DNA of 50,880 bases from an uncultured Eubacteriales bacterium (GTDB taxonomy: Bacteria; Bacillota; Clostridia; Oscillospirales; Acutalibacteraceae). Each line of letters begins with the position of its first letter. Positions within the stretch are counted from its first letter, which is position 1. The translations under genes and the position numbers were made by a program. The notes beneath the pieces were generated by a model. It was not told the origin of the DNA. It did not search any database and saw nothing but the letters and a program-made list of their open reading frames with translations. Location: assembly GCA_900317025.1 (NCBI GenBank), contig ONFG01000019.1, forward strand, positions 1 to 50,880. The letters are read 5' to 3'. Shown here one piece after another: positions 14,523 through 30,020 of this stretch.

Positions 14523-14547
14523 GAAAACGCACATTTTGCGCCGAAAA

Positions 14548-14662
14548 CCTCTTTCATCCGGACTATACCGTCGGCGCCGGAATCTCACCGGCTCGGCGCT
14601 CTTTTGAGCGTTCACGGGCTTTTACCGTCGGTGGGGAATCGCACCCCGCCCCGAAGCTTTCA
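14548..14662 (-). promoter_or_regulatory. FMN riboswitch (RFN element)
   Basis: The minus strand carries the conserved RFN landmarks in order: CTTCGGGGCGGGGTG, GATTCCCCACCGACGGTA, AGCCCG, CCGGTGAGATTCCGG, GCCGACGGTATAGTCCGGAT and GAAAGAGG. FMN binding is expected to favour the terminator at 14490-14522 and to reduce transcription of the operon. Confidence 0.97.
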
Positions 14663-19898: not shown

Positions 19899-19908
19899 GC
19901 GGTTTTTT
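19871..19908. terminator. Bidirectional terminator between tadA and the zincin gene
   Basis: ACCGCTCACCG and CGGTGAGCGGT form an 11-bp stem followed by TTTTTT on the plus strand. The stem starts within tadA, and the T-tract touches the stop codon of the convergent gene at 19907. Confidence 0.85.
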
Positions 19909-22564
19909 ACTTAATGACTGTTACAGTGCCGTTTTTGATGCCCGTTGCACCTTCGTTTACGGTGTAGTCCTTTTCGCCGTTGTTGTCCCAGTTGTTGTTG
20001 CCGTCGTTGAAGCAGAGCGTTGCAGTGCTTGCCGACGCCGGCAGCGGGATAACATACTTGTAAGCGTAGCCGGAAACGTCGCTGTTCTTCGTCATCTTGA
20101 CGCCGGGGACAGCCGTCCATGAGCCGCTGCCTGCTTTGTAGTGGATATTCGGCTCGTTAAAGCCGCTGTAGTATATGACGGCGGCTTTTTCTGCGGTGAA
20201 CTGCGCCTTTTTCGTGACGTGCTCGGCGCCGCCGGAATCCTTCACCTTCGCATATACGGTGTAGCTGCCCGTGCCGCCGATGAAGACCTTAGCCGCAGAC
20301 GAGGAGGAGTAGCCGCTCTCGTAGACTACGTCACTGCCTTTTGTACAGATGATATTGAACTGGCAGCCGGAGTCGGGCGCGGCTGCGGTGATGCTTGCGA
20401 ATTCGCCCTCATAAACCTTGTCGCTGCCCGTCGTTACGTCGACAGTGCCGTAATATGAGAAGTTCTCATACTGCGCCGTTACCGTCATATCGGAGGTGAC
20501 GCTCGAAATGTCGGCGTCCCAGCCGGTAAATCTGCCGTATTTATCGGAGGCTGCCGGGTCGGGAACGGAAGCTGCGTCGCCGCTCGGGACGAATCGGAAG
20601 TACAGCCTTTCGCCGTCGGGATCGAGGAACTGCACTCTGTAGACGCGCTCGGACTCGCCGTTCGGATTCCCGACGAGACTTTGGATATACTCAAACTCGT
20701 CGCCGGGGAAGGAGTCGATTATCTCAAAGCCGGTAGCATCACTGTGAGTCGCGTTATACTTGTTTTGAAGACACATCATAAGATAGTCGAATCTGCCTCG
20801 GAAGGAATTGAATCTCGGGTCGTAATAAGTGCAGTAATCGTGAAAGACGGAGCGAACGGTGTCCCAGCCGACTATCTCGGTGGTTCGGTACATTATGTAA
20901 TTCAGTCCGTCGTAATGGCTTTTGCCCGTGCGGGGAACGATAGATTTTTCGTAGCCGTTGGCGCTAACGCTCTTTGTGTATTCGGCAAGACCGTCCCAGC
21001 TTAAACGGTCGCCCCAGCCGTGGTTGAGGAATTCGCCCTCGCCCTTTTGCAGCAGGACGTAAAGCTTCTTGTACTCCGCGCCGAACTCGGTGTCGAAGTG
21101 CCAGCGGTAGGAAAGCCTGTCGAAAAGGTGAGCCACTTCATGGTAGGCTACGTCGGAGATTATGTCTTCCTCGCAGAAGCGGCGGCAGGCGGTGCTCATG
21201 TAGTCGCTGCGCCACTTGATCGGGTTTATGCCGCTGAGCGCCTGGTAAGACTTCATGTACGGCTCATATGTGGAGATAAGATAGAGCCGCGTTCCGCCGA
21301 AGGGAGTCTCTCCCATGAGGTCATACATCACGCCGTAGCCCCATTCGACGTCGTCGCACCACGCCTGAAGCTGCTCGCGGCTTATTCCCTCGACGTCCTT
21401 CTGCTCGAGGACCAACCCTATGTTTTCGCTCACAACTCTTACCTTGTCGACCGGCTCGCTGTCGTAGTCGACCTCGGTAAGCGTAAGGTCATCGTAATAC
21501 GCCGTACCGGTGCCGTAGAGCAGACACTCGACGTCGGCAAGACCACGGTTTGTCGATTCAAAATAGACGGTGATCGTCGTCTCGCCGCAGTCGGACTGTA
21601 TCCAGTTGTTGTAGCTGTCGAAGATCGCGCCCTCGCCGTAGTTGTAGGTGCCGTCTTCATTGCGGTTTACCGCCCAGCCACTGTGAATGCCGCCGACCTG
21701 AACGAAGATGCCGTTGTGGTGCTCATCGTTCACAGTGAGATTGCCGCGGACCTTGGCGGTCAGCTTATAGGTAGACTCGGGCTTCAGGCCGCTGAGCCTG
21801 TTGACGGCGAAAACTATGCTCTCGTTTTTGCTCGTGAGCTTCAAGCCCTTCGAGCCGTTCGTTCCGGCGCCGCTCTCGATAACGCAGTCGGAAGCCTTCA
21901 CGCCGTTGCCGAGTATCCATGCGTCGCCCATCGCCGCGCGCTCAAAGCCTCCGTCGAGGTCGTAAACTATCTCGTCAAGCGGACGAACGACGACGGGCTC
22001 TTCGGAATCGGTCTGAGGTTCGGCACTGTCGGTATCGTCGACGTCGGTAACGATCACGTCGGAGTCGCTTTCCGGCTCGGGCGGCGGCGGAAGCTCGTCG
22101 GAATCAAGCGGCGGTAAAGGCGGCTCTTCGAGCTCGCTGTCCGGTACGGGGATCACGGGCGGCAGCTCGTCCGTATCGTGGACAAAGTCGGTCTGAACGT
22201 CTGCCTGCCAGTCGGTGTCCCGGGGTTCGCTGTCGGTCTGAGACGTGTCTGTATCGGTGATCGGCTGCTCTTCGGTGTCGGTATCTTCGACCTCGGAGTC
22301 GGTCACGTCGGTGTCGGAGGCGAGGTCGGGATCTTCAGGCACGGGATCCGGCTCGGAGTCGATCAATATCTCTTCGCCGAGAGAATAGCCCTTGCTGTTT
22401 TTCGGCACATCTCCCCCTCGCGTGATGTACGACTGGATAAGATATGCGTCCGAGAGGGACGCGCCCTCGTTCTCGTCGACGTCGGCAAGCGTCCACTGCA
22501 CGGTTTTGATGTTAATAAGCTCGAGCAGCGCCCGCCGGAATCGCAGGCAATGCCGCCATTGCAA
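19907..22564 (-). CDS. Secreted zincin with dockerin-like, jelly-roll and CBM25-like modules; 5' end out of frame
   Basis: The open frame encodes up to 885 residues. Modules in order: a dockerin half (ALLELIN..., then a calcium loop DVDENEGASLSDA and helix YLIQSYI); an acidic D/T/E/P linker with DTDT runs; a beta-rich domain of jelly-roll type (about 195-360); a metalloprotease-like region with the zinc motif HEVAH (21128-21142, about residue 475) and a likely third ligand nearby in GLAEYTK; a flexible beta-repeat with GRFTGWD; and a C-terminal starch-binding module resembling CBM25 (AVIYYSGFNEPNIHYK...GSWTAVPG). This frame has no ATG before the dockerin, only a weak TTG at 22564. A perfect signal peptide with ribosome-binding site lies one frame away at 22613, so the gene is frame-disrupted in this sequence. 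Expected role: extracellular protease or amylosome-type component. Confidence 0.7.
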   Translation of the reverse strand: MQWRHCLRFRRALLELINIKTVQWTLADVDENEGASLSDAYLIQSYITRGGDVPKNSKGYSLGEEILIDSEPDPVPEDPDLASDTDVTDSEVEDTDTEEQPITDTDTSQTDSEPRDTDWQADVQTDFVHDTDELPPVIPVPDSELEEPPLPPLDSDELPPPPEPESDSDVIVTDVDDTDSAEPQTDSEEPVVVRPLDEIVYDLDGGFERAAMGDAWILGNGVKASDCVIESGAGTNGSKGLKLTSKNESIVFAVNRLSGLKPESTYKLTAKVRGNLTVNDEHHNGIFVQVGGIHSGWAVNRNEDGTYNYGEGAIFDSYNNWIQSDCGETTITVYFESTNRGLADVECLLYGTGTAYYDDLTLTEVDYDSEPVDKVRVVSENIGLVLEQKDVEGISREQLQAWCDDVEWGYGVMYDLMGETPFGGTRLYLISTYEPYMKSYQALSGINPIKWRSDYMSTACRRFCEEDIISDVAYHEVAHLFDRLSYRWHFDTEFGAEYKKLYVLLQKGEGEFLNHGWGDRLSWDGLAEYTKSVSANGYEKSIVPRTGKSHYDGLNYIMYRTTEIVGWDTVRSVFHDYCTYYDPRFNSFRGRFDYLMMCLQNKYNATHSDATGFEIIDSFPGDEFEYIQSLVGNPNGESERVYRVQFLDPDGERLYFRFVPSGDAASVPDPAASDKYGRFTGWDADISSVTSDMTVTAQYENFSYYGTVDVTTGSDKVYEGEFASITAAAPDSGCQFNIICTKGSDVVYESGYSSSSAAKVFIGGTGSYTVYAKVKDSGGAEHVTKKAQFTAEKAAVIYYSGFNEPNIHYKAGSGSWTAVPGVKMTKNSDVSGYAYKYVIPLPASASTATLCFNDGNNNWDNNGEKDYTVNEGATGIKNGTVTVIK

Positions 22565-24157: not shown

Positions 24158-24739
24158 TCAAGCCGTAAAACCGTATGCTCTGATTATGCTCGTGAGCGAG
24201 GTGGTAAGCGTCTTTGAGATGTGCTCGATGACAGTTTCCTTGTCGAGGGTCTCTCTGTCGCGGATCCAGTCCATCAGCATCCCGGACAGCGCCTCGGTGT
24301 AAAAATTGGTAAGAAAGGATCTGTACTTCTCGTCAAGACGCATATTGAGATTCTTTTCCTTCGCTTCGATAAACTGATCCATGAGGGCGATAAAGTCAGA
24401 ATAGAAGAACGACTTCACAACGTCGTGACCGATCGAATCGTAAGCGCACGTTATAAGGTGGTTGTTTTCTTCAACGTAGTTCATCACGAAGGCGATCGTC
24501 TCGTCAAAGTCGGATATCGGGTCATAGTGCTTTACAACCTCGACTGCGTCCTGCTGCACCATCCATTTCAAAAGTGCGTAGATATCCTGGAAATGGTAGT
24601 AGAAGGTCTTTCTGTTTACACCGCAGTCCGTGATGATCTCGGTTACGGTAATCTTTGAAAAAGGTTTTTTCTCCATGGCATTTCGCAGCGAGCGTGCAAG
24701 CGCCCTTTTCGTGTTCATAGAGGTTACTGCGTGTGTCAT
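24158..24739 (-). CDS. TetR-family transcriptional regulator
   Basis: 193 residues. The N-terminal DNA-binding domain (about 10-55) has the TetR pattern: ALARSLRNAMEKKPFSKITV, then TEIITDCGVNRKTFYYHFQD, the recognition helix region. The all-helical C-terminal part (about 70-190) should bind an unknown effector. The ATG at 24739 is preceded by GGGAG at 10 bases and a promoter at 24761-24789. It lies downstream of the ECF operon in the same direction but with its own promoter, so a regulatory link to that operon is possible but unproven. Members with this N-terminus include DhaS-like proteins. Confidence 0.88.
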   Translation of the reverse strand: MTHAVTSMNTKRALARSLRNAMEKKPFSKITVTEIITDCGVNRKTFYYHFQDIYALLKWMVQQDAVEVVKHYDPISDFDETIAFVMNYVEENNHLITCAYDSIGHDVVKSFFYSDFIALMDQFIEAKEKNLNMRLDEKYRSFLTNFYTEALSGMLMDWIRDRETLDKETVIEHISKTLTTSLTSIIRAYGFTA

Positions 24740-24886: not shown

Positions 24887-25570
24887 TCATAACCCGTATT
24901 TTTTTCTGATGCGTTCGAGCTTTTCGCCGACAGGTCTTGAAAGAACGAGCAGAAAAGCAACATTGGATACGGCATAGATCGCCGTCACGGGGAGCGCTGC
25001 CGCAAGCGCCGCGAGATAGCGGGAGGTAATGAAGGTGCCATCAAACCAGACGGTCGTCCAGATATCCATGAATGCGGAGTAAACTACGCCGGAGAGCACG
25101 CCGAAAAGGATCAGAAACGCGCGGCTCTTTTGAAGAGGCTTCGACAAAAGCCCCGCCGCAAAGCCGATCATGCCCCAGATGAACATCTGAAACGGCGTCC
25201 ACGGACCTTGCATGAACAGGAAATTCGACAAAAAAGCCGATAGCGAGCCGCATAAAAAGCCCGCCTCGCAGCCCAGATGGATCCCGCAGATAACGACGAT
25301 CGCCGTTACCGGCTTAAAAAACGGAATCGGCGCGAAAATGAAACGCCCGACGACGGAAAGCGCCGTCATCGCGGAAAGGATAACAAGGCGTTTCGTGCCG
25401 CCCTCGCGCCCCTCAAAAGCGAGAAAAAACAGCAGGCACGACACCACGGCGATTGCCGCCGAAACAAGCATATATCGGCGGTCATAAAAAACGAACGAGC
25501 CGACCCCAACGAGCAGCGGGATAACTATCAGTACCGTAAAAAGCTCCGTCAGAAGCTTCTTTTTCGTCAT
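24887..25570 (-). CDS. ECF transporter S component (substrate-binding membrane subunit)
   Basis: 227 residues with about seven hydrophobic helices. The start is ATG at 25570 (MTKKKLLTELF), with GGAGG at 9 bases; an extension to 25612 lacks a site. The motif MQGPWTPFQMFIWGMIGFAAGLL and the preceding FAPIPFFKPVTAIVVICGIHLG are typical of ECF S components that bind vitamins or their precursors. It is the last gene of an operon: barrel protein, DUF4430 protein, EcfT, EcfA and S component. Which ligand it carries is not readable from the sequence. The company of transcobalamin-like proteins suggests a corrinoid, by inference. Confidence 0.85.
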   Translation of the reverse strand: MTKKKLLTELFTVLIVIPLLVGVGSFVFYDRRYMLVSAAIAVVSCLLFFLAFEGREGGTKRLVILSAMTALSVVGRFIFAPIPFFKPVTAIVVICGIHLGCEAGFLCGSLSAFLSNFLFMQGPWTPFQMFIWGMIGFAAGLLSKPLQKSRAFLILFGVLSGVVYSAFMDIWTTVWFDGTFITSRYLAALAAALPVTAIYAVSNVAFLLVLSRPVGEKLERIRKKYGL

Positions 25571-25596
25571 TTTGCGATTCCTCCAAACTGTAGTTA

Positions 25597-27234
25597 TTAC
25601 TTTTTCCGGCACGAGGCGGCAATGGCCTCCGTCGTTACGGCGCCGGGGATAAGCCCCCGGGCGATATGCGCCTCGGGCGTCGTGAAGTATGAAAGCCCCG
25701 AGAAAAACTGCCCGGGCGTATCGGTGCAGGCGATCGCGCCGTCAAACAGAAGCGCGCAGCGGTCGGAGCAAAGAGCCGCCGTCTGTGCGTCGTGGGTAAC
25801 GATCACGACGGTAACGCCTATGGTCTTTAGCTTGTTTACAAGCTTCGCTGACGTCTGCTTAGCTTCGAGATCCATGCCCTTTGTCGGCTCGTCAAGCAGC
25901 ATGACGTCGGGCTTTAAAAGGAGCAGCTTTGCTATCGCCGCCTTCTGCTGCTCGCCGCCGCTCAGGTCGTAAGGGTGACGGTCGAGAAGGTGAGCGATTC
26001 CAAGCTTTTTACTGACAGCTTCGATCTCATCGGTAACGTCTCCGCCCGACGGGAAGGCTCCCGCAGCTTTTGCGGCTTCGATGAGATCGTCTCTGACGGT
26101 CGGGGTCACGAAAAGCTCACGCGGCGACTGCGGCAGGAGCGCCGTTCTGATATCTCCGCGCTTTGTGGCGTTCTTTCCCGAAAGCAGCAGCTTGCCGCTG
26201 TATGGCTTATACACTCCGGATATAACCTTCAAAAGCGTCGATTTCCCCGCTCCGTTGCCGCCGAGGATGCTCAGCACCTCGCCCTTGTAAACGGAGAGCG
26301 ACAAGCCCGAGAGCACGTCCGGCGAGTCCTTTGAATAGCGGAAGAAAACGTCGTCAAGCTTTATCGCGGGCTTGGCAGGGCTGTTCTTATTGACGGTCGC
26401 CGCGGGAAGATTAGAGAAGACGTAGTTATCCGAAAGGAAGCTGCGGCACTGAGCCGTAGTTATCGGGCAGACGCCGCTGCCGCCGAGAGTATGGAATACA
26501 CGCGCCGCCGCAGGCATAGCGCCGATGAAAAAACAAGATTTGCCGGCTGCTTCTTTTGGCGGGGCATCAGCGATGAGCCTGCCGTTTTCAAGGCAGAGCA
26601 CCCTGTCGACGTAAGGGAATATCTCGTCGCTTCGATGCTCACATATGACGACGGTCACGCCAAGCTCACGGTTCAGGCGCATCACCTGCGAGATGAGAGA
26701 CTTTGAGGCGATCGGGTCGAGCTGAGAGGTCGGCTCATCGAGCAGAAGCAGCGAAGGCTCACAAACGGTCGCCGCGGCAAGATTGACAAGCTGCTTCTCG
26801 CCGCCGGAGAGCGACGATATCCTGCGGCGGTAAAGATCCTCGATGCCGTAGTAAAGCGATATCTCGGCTGTTTTGCGGCGTATCTCGGAGCGGGAGGAGC
26901 CAAGGCTTTCAAGCCCGAATGCAAGCTCCCGCCAGACGGTCTCGGCAACGAGCTGAGCCTCGACGTTCTGGGCAACGCAGCCGACTTCGCTGACGGCTGT
27001 GCGCTCCGTAAGCTCCTCTGCTTTTTTGCCGCCAATGAGTATGCTGCCGGAAAGCTCTCCAAACGGCGCAAGTCTTCGCTTCAAAAGCCGCAGCAGCGTT
27101 GTCTTGCCGCTGCCTGATCGGCCGCACAGCAGCACAAGCTCGCCCTCGTTCACGGTAAAGGTAACGTTATCTAAAGCGTATTTTTCGCTGTCGGGATATC
27201 TGAAGCACACGCCGTCAAATTTAACCGCCTCCAA
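25597..27234 (-). CDS. Fused tandem ABC ATPase of an ECF transporter (EcfA1-EcfA2 type)
   Basis: 545 residues with two complete nucleotide-binding domains, so one chain replaces the usual EcfA/EcfA' pair. Domain 1 (about 1-225): Walker A GRSGSGKTT, signature LSGGEKQ, Walker B LLLLDEPTSQLD. Domain 2 (about 285-500): Walker A GGNGAGKST, signature LSGGEQQ, Walker B VMLLDEPTKGMD. The start is a UUG at 27234 (then GAGGCGGTT), with GGAGG 7 bases upstream; there is no nearby ATG in frame. It overlaps the end of ecfT by 64 bases, which suggests translational coupling. It should power uptake through EcfT and the S component downstream. Confidence 0.92.
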   Translation of the reverse strand: MEAVKFDGVCFRYPDSEKYALDNVTFTVNEGELVLLCGRSGSGKTTLLRLLKRRLAPFGELSGSILIGGKKAEELTERTAVSEVGCVAQNVEAQLVAETVWRELAFGLESLGSSRSEIRRKTAEISLYYGIEDLYRRRISSLSGGEKQLVNLAAATVCEPSLLLLDEPTSQLDPIASKSLISQVMRLNRELGVTVVICEHRSDEIFPYVDRVLCLENGRLIADAPPKEAAGKSCFFIGAMPAAARVFHTLGGSGVCPITTAQCRSFLSDNYVFSNLPAATVNKNSPAKPAIKLDDVFFRYSKDSPDVLSGLSLSVYKGEVLSILGGNGAGKSTLLKVISGVYKPYSGKLLLSGKNATKRGDIRTALLPQSPRELFVTPTVRDDLIEAAKAAGAFPSGGDVTDEIEAVSKKLGIAHLLDRHPYDLSGGEQQKAAIAKLLLLKPDVMLLDEPTKGMDLEAKQTSAKLVNKLKTIGVTVVIVTHDAQTAALCSDRCALLFDGAIACTDTPGQFFSGLSYFTTPEAHIARGLIPGAVTTEAIAASCRKK

Positions 27235-28082
27235 AGGCTCACCTCCGTTATTGACGGGACGAGCGCCGCCGCCCCGAAGAATATATAAGACGCGACCGCG
27301 GCGGAGTTTAGCGGTAGCTCCGTTACGGAAGGGTAAAAAGAAAAGCCGAGATACCCGCCTGCACCGGACAGGACCACGAAGACAAGCGCCGCCGCAGTTA
27401 CCGCCGCAGTCAGAAGATCGCCCCGGCGAAAGCGGTACTCGGAATACGCCGTCCTGCCTTTTAGCTCGACGCCGCGCGAACGCATGGAGTCGGCGGTGTC
27501 GACGGAGTCTTCGAGTATCATCGTCACGAGAGCCGAAAAGACAGTAAGCGACGAGCGGGCGCGCCCGAAAAGTGATGACGAGTCGTAAAGCCCGCAGGCT
27601 TTTCTTACCTCCATCATTCGCTTATATTCCGAGAGGAATAGAGGGATAAGCCTCAGCGTAAGCGACAGCAGGACCGCAAGCTTTGGGAAGGGTCTGCCGA
27701 AGAGGTATATCACCTTGTCGGAGGTCATGCAGAGCGAAAGCGACGAGCACCACAGGACCGCCGCCGCACATAGCACCGACATGAACGCGCCGAAAAGCAG
27801 AGCCTCGCGCGTTATCGGAAGACCGCCGAGAAAAAACAGCACCGTTACCCCATGGTGGGAGAACAGCGGGTTCAAAAGCGTTACGGCTAGCATAAAAACA
27901 GCCATGAGCGCGACCTGCCGCGGCTTTACGCCGACCGTCAGCGCGCGGTGAAGAGACGCCGCAAAAAGCGACAGCAGAGCGATGGCGGGGTTCGTCGTCA
28001 GCACCGTTGCGCAGAGTATGAACGAAAACCACAGCATCAGTGTCAGCGGGTGCAGATGCGAAAAGGCAGATTCGTTGTTCAT
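27171..28082 (-). CDS. ECF transporter transmembrane coupling subunit (EcfT/CbiQ family)
   Basis: 303 residues with about six or seven hydrophobic helices. The cytoplasmic coupling motif with Ala-Arg-Gly is in ADSMRSRGVELKG; a related first motif is RKACGLYD. This subunit joins the ATPases to the S component. The ATG overlaps the DUF4430 gene stop (ATGA at 28079-28082), and the gene overlaps ecfA at its end, so the four genes are tightly coupled. Confidence 0.9.
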   Translation of the reverse strand: MNNESAFSHLHPLTLMLWFSFILCATVLTTNPAIALLSLFAASLHRALTVGVKPRQVALMAVFMLAVTLLNPLFSHHGVTVLFFLGGLPITREALLFGAFMSVLCAAAVLWCSSLSLCMTSDKVIYLFGRPFPKLAVLLSLTLRLIPLFLSEYKRMMEVRKACGLYDSSSLFGRARSSLTVFSALVTMILEDSVDTADSMRSRGVELKGRTAYSEYRFRRGDLLTAAVTAAALVFVVLSGAGGYLGFSFYPSVTELPLNSAAVASYIFFGAAALVPSITEVSLWRRLNLTACASDIPTAKNTL

Positions 28083-28621
28083 TCGTGCTTCTCCCCCTGC
28101 GCGGCGTAGTAATTGTCGCCAACGTCGCGCCCAAGGTCGCAGGTGTAGAGCCAGCGCAGTGAGTCGCCGTCGTGAAGCGTGTATTCCGAGCTTGAAACGG
28201 TCGGGAAATCGCCGTTTACACTGTACATCCAGCCGGAAAGGTCGCCGCAGTCGTATTCATATATGTTGTTAATCCCCTTGACGTAGACGGAGCGGTCGGA
28301 TATGGCGGAATAGTCAAAATGTATCCTGCGCTCATTAAGCGCGTTTGAGAGGACGTCAAACGCCGTGTCTCCGTCTGAGATCGCCACCTCGGTCTCGGGG
28401 ATTATCAGCCCGTCGTCTGGTACAAGGTCATTTGCTTTGAGCACTTGACCGACCCCGCTGTCGTTCGCTATCTCTTCGCAGCTCACAAGAAGCGTGACGG
28501 TGCCTGTTTGAGCATCGGAACAGCCGGAAGAGTAGTGCTCCTCGACCGACTCATAATTCAGCGCGAAGACGAGCGCCGCTGCCGCAAGAAGGGCAGCCGC
28601 CGCAAAAAGTATACGTTTCAT
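28079..28621 (-). CDS. DUF4430 (transcobalamin C-terminal-like) exported protein
   Basis: 180 residues with an N-terminal hydrophobic segment (ILFAAAALLAAAALVFAL) that is a signal peptide or anchor. The rest (about 40-170) matches the DUF4430 pattern, with DGDTAFDVLSNAL, and DLSGWMYSVNGDFP followed by LHDGDSLRWLY. In animals this fold is the C-terminal beta domain of intrinsic factor and transcobalamin. Here it is a separate gene directly after the alpha/alpha-barrel gene (4-base gap) and overlapping ecfT. Proposed role: surface ligand-binding partner of the transporter. A bacterial role in corrinoid binding is inference. Confidence 0.8.
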   Translation of the reverse strand: MKRILFAAAALLAAAALVFALNYESVEEHYSSGCSDAQTGTVTLLVSCEEIANDSGVGQVLKANDLVPDDGLIIPETEVAISDGDTAFDVLSNALNERRIHFDYSAISDRSVYVKGINNIYEYDCGDLSGWMYSVNGDFPTVSSSEYTLHDGDSLRWLYTCDLGRDVGDNYYAAQGEKHE

Positions 28622-28625
28622 GCGA

Positions 28626-30020
28626 TCATTTCCTGTTCTTCGTTCTTTTCATGACCGTGTGGTTCAAAACGATAACGGCAGCTGCAACCACGGCGACGGA
28701 GATTAAAAAAGCTGTCTCCCTCACGCCTATGCCGCGCCCTCCCTGTGAAGAGGTCTGCGACGAAGCTTCAAGCCGGCTCACGTTTTCATCCGCCGCTGTG
28801 AGTGACTGAGACGATGCGCCGATCGGCTCAAACAGATCGTCGCCGAGGGCAGCCCCCTCGTTTGAAGCGATCTCGTCGGGCGAGAAGAACGTGCCGTCAA
28901 AGCCCTCAGGGAACGCCGAATACAGCTTTTCAAAGCCCGAAATATACCTTCTGTCGCCGGGAGCGAACGCCGCGTACTTGTCAAGGATACGCTTTGCCGC
29001 CGCTTCGTCGCTCGTATCAAGCGAGTAGATCCCGATTGAGAGAGACGTCACCTCGGTAAAGAACTCGTCGGAGTGCTCGGAGCGAAGGTCATAAAGCGCA
29101 CGGCTGCCGGTTTTACAGCGCAGGTAAGCGGAAAGCGCGTAAAAGCTCTGGGCGGTGGCGTAAGCGTCGCTGCCGGAGCCGGACTCGTTGTGCGCGAAGC
29201 CGCCGTCGTCCCTGCGGTAGGAAAGCAGCCCGTCGAGAAGCGTTTTGCCGTTTTTGACAAACCGCTCGTCAGCCGTCGGGTCAATGCCGAGCGAGCAAAG
29301 CGCGACTATCGTCTGTGCTGTCGTCTCGCAGGAGGGCGCGCCCCAGTTTTTGACGGTGGCGTCGTCGGTCACGTTTGCCGAGAGAAAATCGGTCATACGC
29401 GAAACGGCGGCTCTTACCTCGCCGCTTCCGGTCACATACGGCGAAAGCGCCGTTACCGCCATCGCTGTGACGTCCGTTTCGGGCACAGTCTCGTTCATCA
29501 TCCAAAGCGCGCCGCTGTCGAGCTGCCTGGAAAGTATCTCATCGACAAGCGCCTGCCTTGAAAGGTCGGCGCCCTCGGGCAGCTCATAAAGCCCGCTGTC
29601 GAGGACGATAAGCGCAAAGATAAGCTGATTGATGAGCTTTTCGGAAAGCTCGCCGTTCGTGAAATTGTCGGTAAGAGCTTTAAGTATACCGCTCCCGACT
29701 ATATCGCCGCCGTTTGCTGATACCGCAAGAGAGAGCCGCTCAAGGTCGGGTACGGTGAGGCGGTCACTGTTAGACGAGTAATACACGAGAGCCGCCTTCG
29801 CGTAGCTTTCGTCGGGCTTTCCCGAGCGCCCCGCGGAAAACGCGAGCCAGTCGCAGGCGTTCTCGCCCACATGGAGTGAAACGCTGCCGACGTTCTCGCT
29901 CTGCCATTCCAGAATGCCGTTCATCGCCTCTTTCTCGGGGCTGAGGGTCGTCTCGGCGTAAGCGGCAAGCGGCGCGATAAGCAAGACGCACGCGGTAAAA
30001 AATGCTATTATCTTTTTCAT
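28626..30020 (-). CDS. Membrane-anchored alpha/alpha-barrel (prenyltransferase/squalene-oxidase-repeat) protein
   Basis: 464 residues; start ATG at 30020 (MKKIIAFFTACVLLIAPLAA), with GGAG 8 bases upstream. Signal peptide (1-22), then an all-helical region (about 30-390) of repeated helix pairs with alpha/alpha-toroid features such as ETTAQTIVALCSLGIDP and YRRDDGGFAHNESGSGSDAY, followed by a Ser/Gln stalk and a C-terminal helix (AFLISVAVVAAAVIVLNH) ending in KRTKNRK. So the barrel is outside, tethered by its C-terminus. The same fold forms the N-terminal half of transcobalamin and intrinsic factor; no catalytic Asp-rich motif of a prenyltransferase or cyclase is evident. It is the first gene of the ECF operon. 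Confidence 0.82.
   Translation of the reverse strand: MKKIIAFFTACVLLIAPLAAYAETTLSPEKEAMNGILEWQSENVGSVSLHVGENACDWLAFSAGRSGKPDESYAKAALVYYSSNSDRLTVPDLERLSLAVSANGGDIVGSGILKALTDNFTNGELSEKLINQLIFALIVLDSGLYELPEGADLSRQALVDEILSRQLDSGALWMMNETVPETDVTAMAVTALSPYVTGSGEVRAAVSRMTDFLSANVTDDATVKNWGAPSCETTAQTIVALCSLGIDPTADERFVKNGKTLLDGLLSYRRDDGGFAHNESGSGSDAYATAQSFYALSAYLRCKTGSRALYDLRSEHSDEFFTEVTSLSIGIYSLDTSDEAAAKRILDKYAAFAPGDRRYISGFEKLYSAFPEGFDGTFFSPDEIASNEGAALGDDLFEPIGASSQSLTAADENVSRLEASSQTSSQGGRGIGVRETAFLISVAVVAAAVIVLNHTVMKRTKNRK

Follow-up and report, generated by a model that had tools for sequence, protein, structure and literature searches.

The closest described counterpart of the five-gene operon analysed here, which lies in contig ONFG01000019.1 of an uncultured Eubacteriales bacterium (50,880 nucleotides, analysed as a whole and called the window below), is the bacterial system predicted by Burroughs et al. 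in 2007 (PMC1796856). According to the account given there, which defined the SLBB superfamily, bacteria possess fusions of toroid and SLBB domains in both orders, found in operons with CbiO and CbiQ where B12 synthesis is usually lacking; B12 scavenging was proposed, and a transfer of the bacterial carrier to animals was suggested. The window operon encodes an alpha/alpha-barrel (toroid) protein, a DUF4430 (SLBB) protein and an energy-coupling factor (ECF) transporter, and it resembles the 2007 system in both domains, in the operon partners and in the proposed B12-scavenging role. The passages of that paper dealing with these operons describe fusions, with the toroid on either side of SLBB, and a second SLBB paralogue, but no pair in which a toroid-only protein stands beside a distinct SLBB protein, and they mention neither an S component nor riboswitches. 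The two-piece idea itself is not new, since PMC1796856 proposed it for SLBB-plus-toroid proteins in CbiO/CbiQ operons, and the window operon is, measured against that account, a split, anchored variant of the predicted system. What is new is the finding that the split arrangement predominates (66 of 80 loci), together with the link to CbrT and the riboswitch counts. Overall, the operon probably serves corrinoid scavenging by a two-piece transcobalamin/intrinsic-factor-like carrier feeding a CbrT-like ECF importer.

Among transporters, the nearest described system is ECF-CbrT of Lactobacillus delbrueckii (PMC5997447, PDB 6FNP), reported there to import cobalamin and cobinamide, with the S component described as the substrate-binding protein of ECF transporters. 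It shares with the window operon the S family, EcfT and two ATPase domains; in the window the two ATPase domains form a single protein encoded next to S, and two exported proteins are added. A third case is Lactobacillus rhamnosus, for which PMC9963975 uses the label 'Additional lipoprotein component of putative cobalamin ECF transporter' and, under a different tag, lists a DUF4430 protein beside rtpR; the two tags may be one protein under the numbering of two strains, or two proteins. There, too, an extra exported component is ascribed to a cobalamin ECF transporter and DUF4430 occurs, whereas the window DUF4430 protein has a hydrophobic anchor and no clear lipobox. Animal intrinsic factor, transcobalamin and haptocorrin show the same two folds, as seen in two bacterial fusions, and the same domain order, as seen in eight; the window differs from them in having two genes, membrane anchoring and no profile match, and their packing was not reproduced in fusion models. 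BtuFCD also imports corrinoids but belongs to other binding protein and permease families; a BtuF-like protein and a FecCD permease stand behind a riboswitch in one congener, genome G008. Finding out which proteins transport B12 in many gut genomes is described as a still open problem (PMC6593275). A literature search found no bench test of such systems, which is weak evidence, as most subscription papers and bioRxiv preprints lay outside its reach.

Organisation of the operon and its proteins

The operon comprises the following genes.

28626..30020, minus strand: alpha/alpha-barrel (toroid) protein of 464 amino acids, with an N-terminal signal or anchor, a barrel domain and a C-terminal membrane anchor
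28079..28621, minus strand: DUF4430 (transcobalamin C-terminal-like, SLBB) protein of 180 amino acids, with an N-terminal hydrophobic anchor or signal (PF14478)
27171..28082, minus strand: EcfT (CbiQ family) transmembrane component (PF02361, E 2.9e-12)
25597..27234, minus strand: fused double EcfA ATPase (ABC_tran in two stretches, E 1.6e-62)
24887..25612, minus strand, GTG start: S component, CbrT-like (cobalamin) (PF07155, E 5.2e-12; kinship to 6fnp_A); the span used for analysis was 24887-25576

The window open reading frames, Pfam and, for the barrel, the family profile bear out the original description of a five-gene operon; all genes are on the minus strand. By their coordinates the barrel and DUF4430 genes are separated by a gap of 4 bases, the DUF4430 and EcfT genes share 4 bases (ATGA), and the EcfT and EcfA genes share 64 bases, provided that the TTG at 27234 is the start codon of EcfA. 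The double EcfA scored 310.7 bits against ECF_ATPase_1 of NCBIfam, slightly under the cut-off of 315; EcfT and two ATPase domains, the set expected of a CbrT-type ECF transporter, are both present. Hydropathy revealed two hydrophobic stretches in the barrel protein (residues 4-22 and 438-456), the second agreeing with the C-terminal anchor that had been predicted, and one in the DUF4430 protein (residues 4-22). The surface location first assigned to these proteins was kept, while its wording, 'outer membrane face', had to be corrected to the outer face of the cytoplasmic membrane because the host is kin to Gram-positive bacteria.

The DUF4430 protein lies well over the PF14478 cut-off (58.1 bits versus 23.8, E 1.3e-15), a domain that PMC4350170 describes as the C-terminal domain of transcobalamins. 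The window barrel sequence alone had no match in Pfam, NCBIfam or PDB; a 24-row profile of its family (A1) matched squalene-hopene cyclases at E 9.6e-11. Alignment A6 has 139 rows, 71 of which hold the barrel, and 55 of the 139 matched Prenyltrans at E <= 0.01. Since its family profile and family members match such folds, the window protein is taken to be an alpha/alpha-barrel. Homologues of it occur in 25 of the 60 nearest genomes, the own genome counted. The own genome also encodes a second DUF4430 protein (G000:C1 659-844; L002, L052) in a frame of 354 amino acids without a barrel match; such script-made frames run from stop to stop, and distances to genes are approximate.

Linkage to the transporter and to corrinoid metabolism

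The sequence evidence makes it almost certain that the operon serves to take up corrinoids (vitamin B12 or a precursor). The best solved relative of the S component is 6fnp_A, the CbrT of Lactobacillus delbrueckii (E 9.1e-10 with the single sequence); a 12-member profile matched it at E 9.2e-20, the next structure being 4hzu_S at 0.0002.

Comparison of a DUF4430 alignment with genome contigs by tblastn found at least 579 related loci, of which the best 80 (L063-L142) were kept. By their titles they come from Clostridia, Bacillales and comparable groups, together with one metagenome-assembled genome of a Nitrososphaerota archaeon (L131), and some of the stretches end early at contig ends. Among these best 80, a barrel match on the operon strand is present in 76, and all five components (barrel, DUF4430, EcfT, EcfA and S) in 56. 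The EcfT frame begins no more than 200 nucleotides from the end of the DUF4430 frame in 63 of the 68 loci bearing EcfT. The linkage of barrel, DUF4430 and EcfT, being kept among relatives, is more than chance. In two Blautia loci (L124 and L127) DUF4430 is followed by the barrel, with no EcfT or S match in the fetched stretch.

Direct scanning of 48 of the 80 loci with Rfam detected a cobalamin riboswitch in 32, with 33 matches, all on the operon strand. Twenty-five of the 48 had been preselected on earlier riboswitch signs, being those of 40 loci in which, by coordinates, an operon-strand riboswitch lay no more than about 450 bases ahead of the first frame of the system (the other 15 had none there), and 23 had not been preselected; the direct scan confirmed a riboswitch in 22 of the 25 and found one in 10 of the 23. 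The riboswitch of L082 was not seen by the direct scan and those of L070 and L072 fell under the gathering score, which L074 and L132 barely reach; one of the two L129 matches is located behind the barrel/DUF4430 pair. Among the 60 nearest genomes, a riboswitch adjoins the barrel frame start in G029, G030, G033, G044 and G049, that is, in 5 of the 10 genomes beyond the genus that carry the barrel and in none of the 15 within it. In G027, where a related EcfT-EcfA-S cluster lacks the pair, a cobalamin riboswitch precedes EcfT by about 86 bases.

The genus sample consisted of 22 genomes, the own one included, the other 38 of the 60 lying outside the genus; Fisher tests on genomes ignore kinship and serve as a guide only. 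Within the genus the barrel is present in 15 of 22 genomes, and the S component in 14 of these 15 and in none of the other seven. The one barrel-bearing genome without it is G009 (76% complete), in which the contig stops inside the ATPase. CbiC, taken as a marker of B12 synthesis, is absent from all 15 barrel-bearing genomes and present in six of the seven barrel-less ones, and the same six hold the only cobalamin riboswitch matches of the genus. In one of them, G008 (L055), Pfam identified behind the riboswitch a periplasmic-type (BtuF-like) binding protein, a FecCD permease, CbiK, CbiC and CbiD. The seventh, G013, is 68% complete and showed no S component, CbiC or riboswitch. The own genome encodes MetH and lacks CbiC, and a MetH frame lies directly upstream of the barrel in congeners G003, G018 and G021. 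The 10 genomes with a barrel beyond the genus encode the S component without exception. Corrinoid import through the ECF transporter is strongly supported by the CbrT-like S component, the riboswitches, the MetH neighbours and the exclusion of CbiC.

Split pairs, natural fusions and structure models

When the best DUF4430 match of each of the 80 loci was considered, a separate barrel gene was found next upstream in 66; in the rest the barrel was fused in front (5), next downstream (2), elsewhere (2) or missing at the threshold used (5). In the window, likewise, the barrel and the beta domain lie on two genes, so that no one-chain carrier is encoded. Eight natural fusions involve DUF4430 of the class found in the operon (over 150 bits), namely those of L122, L045, L040, L037, L069, L070, L081 and L117, of which L037, L040 and L045 come from family- and order-level relatives beyond the 80 loci. 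All eight run barrel first, as in the animal carriers, and none is reversed. Hydropathy indicated two hydrophobic stretches between the domains in the L069, L070, L081 and L117 fusions; the L045 model has two helices at the matching place, and alignment A4 revealed similar interdomain stretches in L040 and L037. The L122 fusion has no hydrophobic stretch between its domains and a lipoprotein-like start.

Two of the fusions were modelled with AlphaFold2, giving a predicted local distance difference test (pLDDT) of 83.7 and a predicted template modelling score (pTM) of 0.63 for L045, and 88.9 and 0.73 for L122. In Foldseek searches against PDB, the top 14 hits of L045 and the top 15 of L122 consisted entirely of transcobalamin, intrinsic factor and haptocorrin structures (lowest E-values 3.3e-7 and 1.5e-10, respectively; template modelling (TM) scores 0.39-0.50 by target length), with terpene cyclases ranking next for both models. 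The free transcobalamin beta domain 5no0 was also matched (TM 0.76 and 0.75 by 5no0 length). Both domains of the carrier fold are thus recovered in two homologous fusions. A search of viral structures returned nothing at E <= 0.001. The L122 model is also matched by PDB 3u7z, a 'putative metal binding protein' of Ruminococcus gnavus (RUMGNA_00854; TM 0.70 by 3u7z length), which is perhaps a solved bacterial DUF4430-like domain.

Proposed mechanism and alternatives

In the mechanism that we infer, the barrel and DUF4430 (SLBB) proteins would be exported and separately anchored as the two halves of a carrier, which would meet at the outer face of the cytoplasmic membrane and hold the corrinoid between them. 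The CbrT-like S component would then receive the corrinoid and be turned inward by the EcfT/double-EcfA motor, and MetH would use the corrinoid inside the cell. From the sequences and their relatives, joint corrinoid binding by the two proteins appears rather likely, and a joint pocket with hand-over to the S component is likely but unproven.

Several observations weigh against this two-piece carrier. Three barrel/DUF4430 profiles found no B12 carrier chain in PDB at E <= 10, so that homology to intrinsic factor, transcobalamin or haptocorrin was not seen by profiles at the sequence level. The root-mean-square deviation from the carriers over both domains is 12.6-17.7 A for L045 and 14.4-15.9 A for L122; therefore the domains match singly and their packing is not transcobalamin-like. 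The original claim of a two-piece carrier is partly supported, by the fusions and by the Foldseek matches to carriers, but a transcobalamin-like domain packing was not found in either model; the modelled chains are the L045 and L122 fusions, from which the fold of the window's own proteins is deduced by homology. Fusion frames with weaker DUF4430 copies (<= 150 bits) mostly have the opposite order, 17 of 24 in the 80 loci beginning with DUF4430 and 7 with the barrel, as do 6 of 6 in nearer relatives. Co-occurrence of barrel, DUF4430 and ECF genes near cobalamin riboswitches, suggested beforehand as a check, was found in the relatives, but neither the window nor the own genome (92% complete) contains such a riboswitch. 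An S component match, weak in some cases, occurs without a barrel match in 13 of 35 barrel-less genomes, all 13 being among the 28 such genomes outside the genus; the pair is therefore not always needed. Finally, S component and barrel lie on different contigs in six genomes of the genus (G004, G007, G010, G012, G014 and G016), and in G010, G014 and G016 the distant S sits in its own EcfT-EcfA-S cluster.

Some of these data would suit a corrinoid operon with no shared pocket, in which one protein binds the corrinoid (or the cell wall) and the other merely docks on the transporter. Such an arrangement would be compatible with the location of the domains on separate genes in most loci, with the packing of the fusion models and with the order of the weaker fusions, and also with G044 (L039, L147), where two separate cobalamin riboswitches precede the barrel and the DUF4430-EcfT-EcfA-S genes. 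It is nevertheless judged unlikely, as the operon's own class of DUF4430 is fused behind the barrel in eight relatives and never before it, and as barrel and DUF4430 genes are still adjacent in G010, G014 and G016 although EcfT, EcfA and S are on another contig.

Family names might point to riboflavin, folate or cobalt, for example, as the transported substrate instead: Pfam assigns the S component to ECF-ribofla_trS (over cut-off) and EcfT to cobalt transport protein, and NCBIfam gives a weak folT match to the S component (27.9 bits versus a cut-off of 60). Nitrogenase-like genes inside some related clusters point the same way; in L111 (8406-11823, plus strand) the DUF4430 gene is separated from the S component by a NifH/nitrogenase-like gene and a second nitrogenase-component-like gene, and these two might mark tetrapyrrole chemistry tied to uptake. 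However, CbrT is by far the best solved relative, the riboswitches of relatives are of the cobalamin type, and the flavin mononucleotide (FMN) riboswitch of the window fronts apparent riboflavin synthesis genes instead. The riboflavin name given by Pfam is a family label only; all three substrates were rejected on CbrT kinship, cobalamin-type riboswitches and MetH linkage, leaving a different substrate very improbable. Very long multi-domain frames with these domains in some related loci, and the Blautia pairs, could suggest that the two exported proteins act as adhesins or in the wall and have no part in ligand binding; this is hard to credit given the riboswitch linkage and the closeness of EcfT to DUF4430.

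If the two-piece carrier is real, a conserved exported pair, often under riboswitch control, would add a capture step to ECF transport, natural fusions and split pairs would allow the 2007 prediction to be put to the test, and the carrier would bear on the origin of animal B12 carriers. Only tentatively can it be suggested that ECF transporters of Bacillota commonly use a two-protein surface corrinoid trap, with the split form as the bacterial norm, fusions rebuilding the animal architecture, and a bacterial source of intrinsic factor and transcobalamin.

Other features of the window

Three further features were recorded in the window.

14542-14662, minus strand: FMN riboswitch, preceding frames read by eye as riboflavin synthesis genes
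24158-24739, minus strand: TetR-type regulator on the strand of the S component and 147 bases past it
19907-22564, minus strand: large frame with Asp/Ser/Thr-rich repeats and an HEVAH stretch, read by eye, perhaps a secreted metallopeptidase

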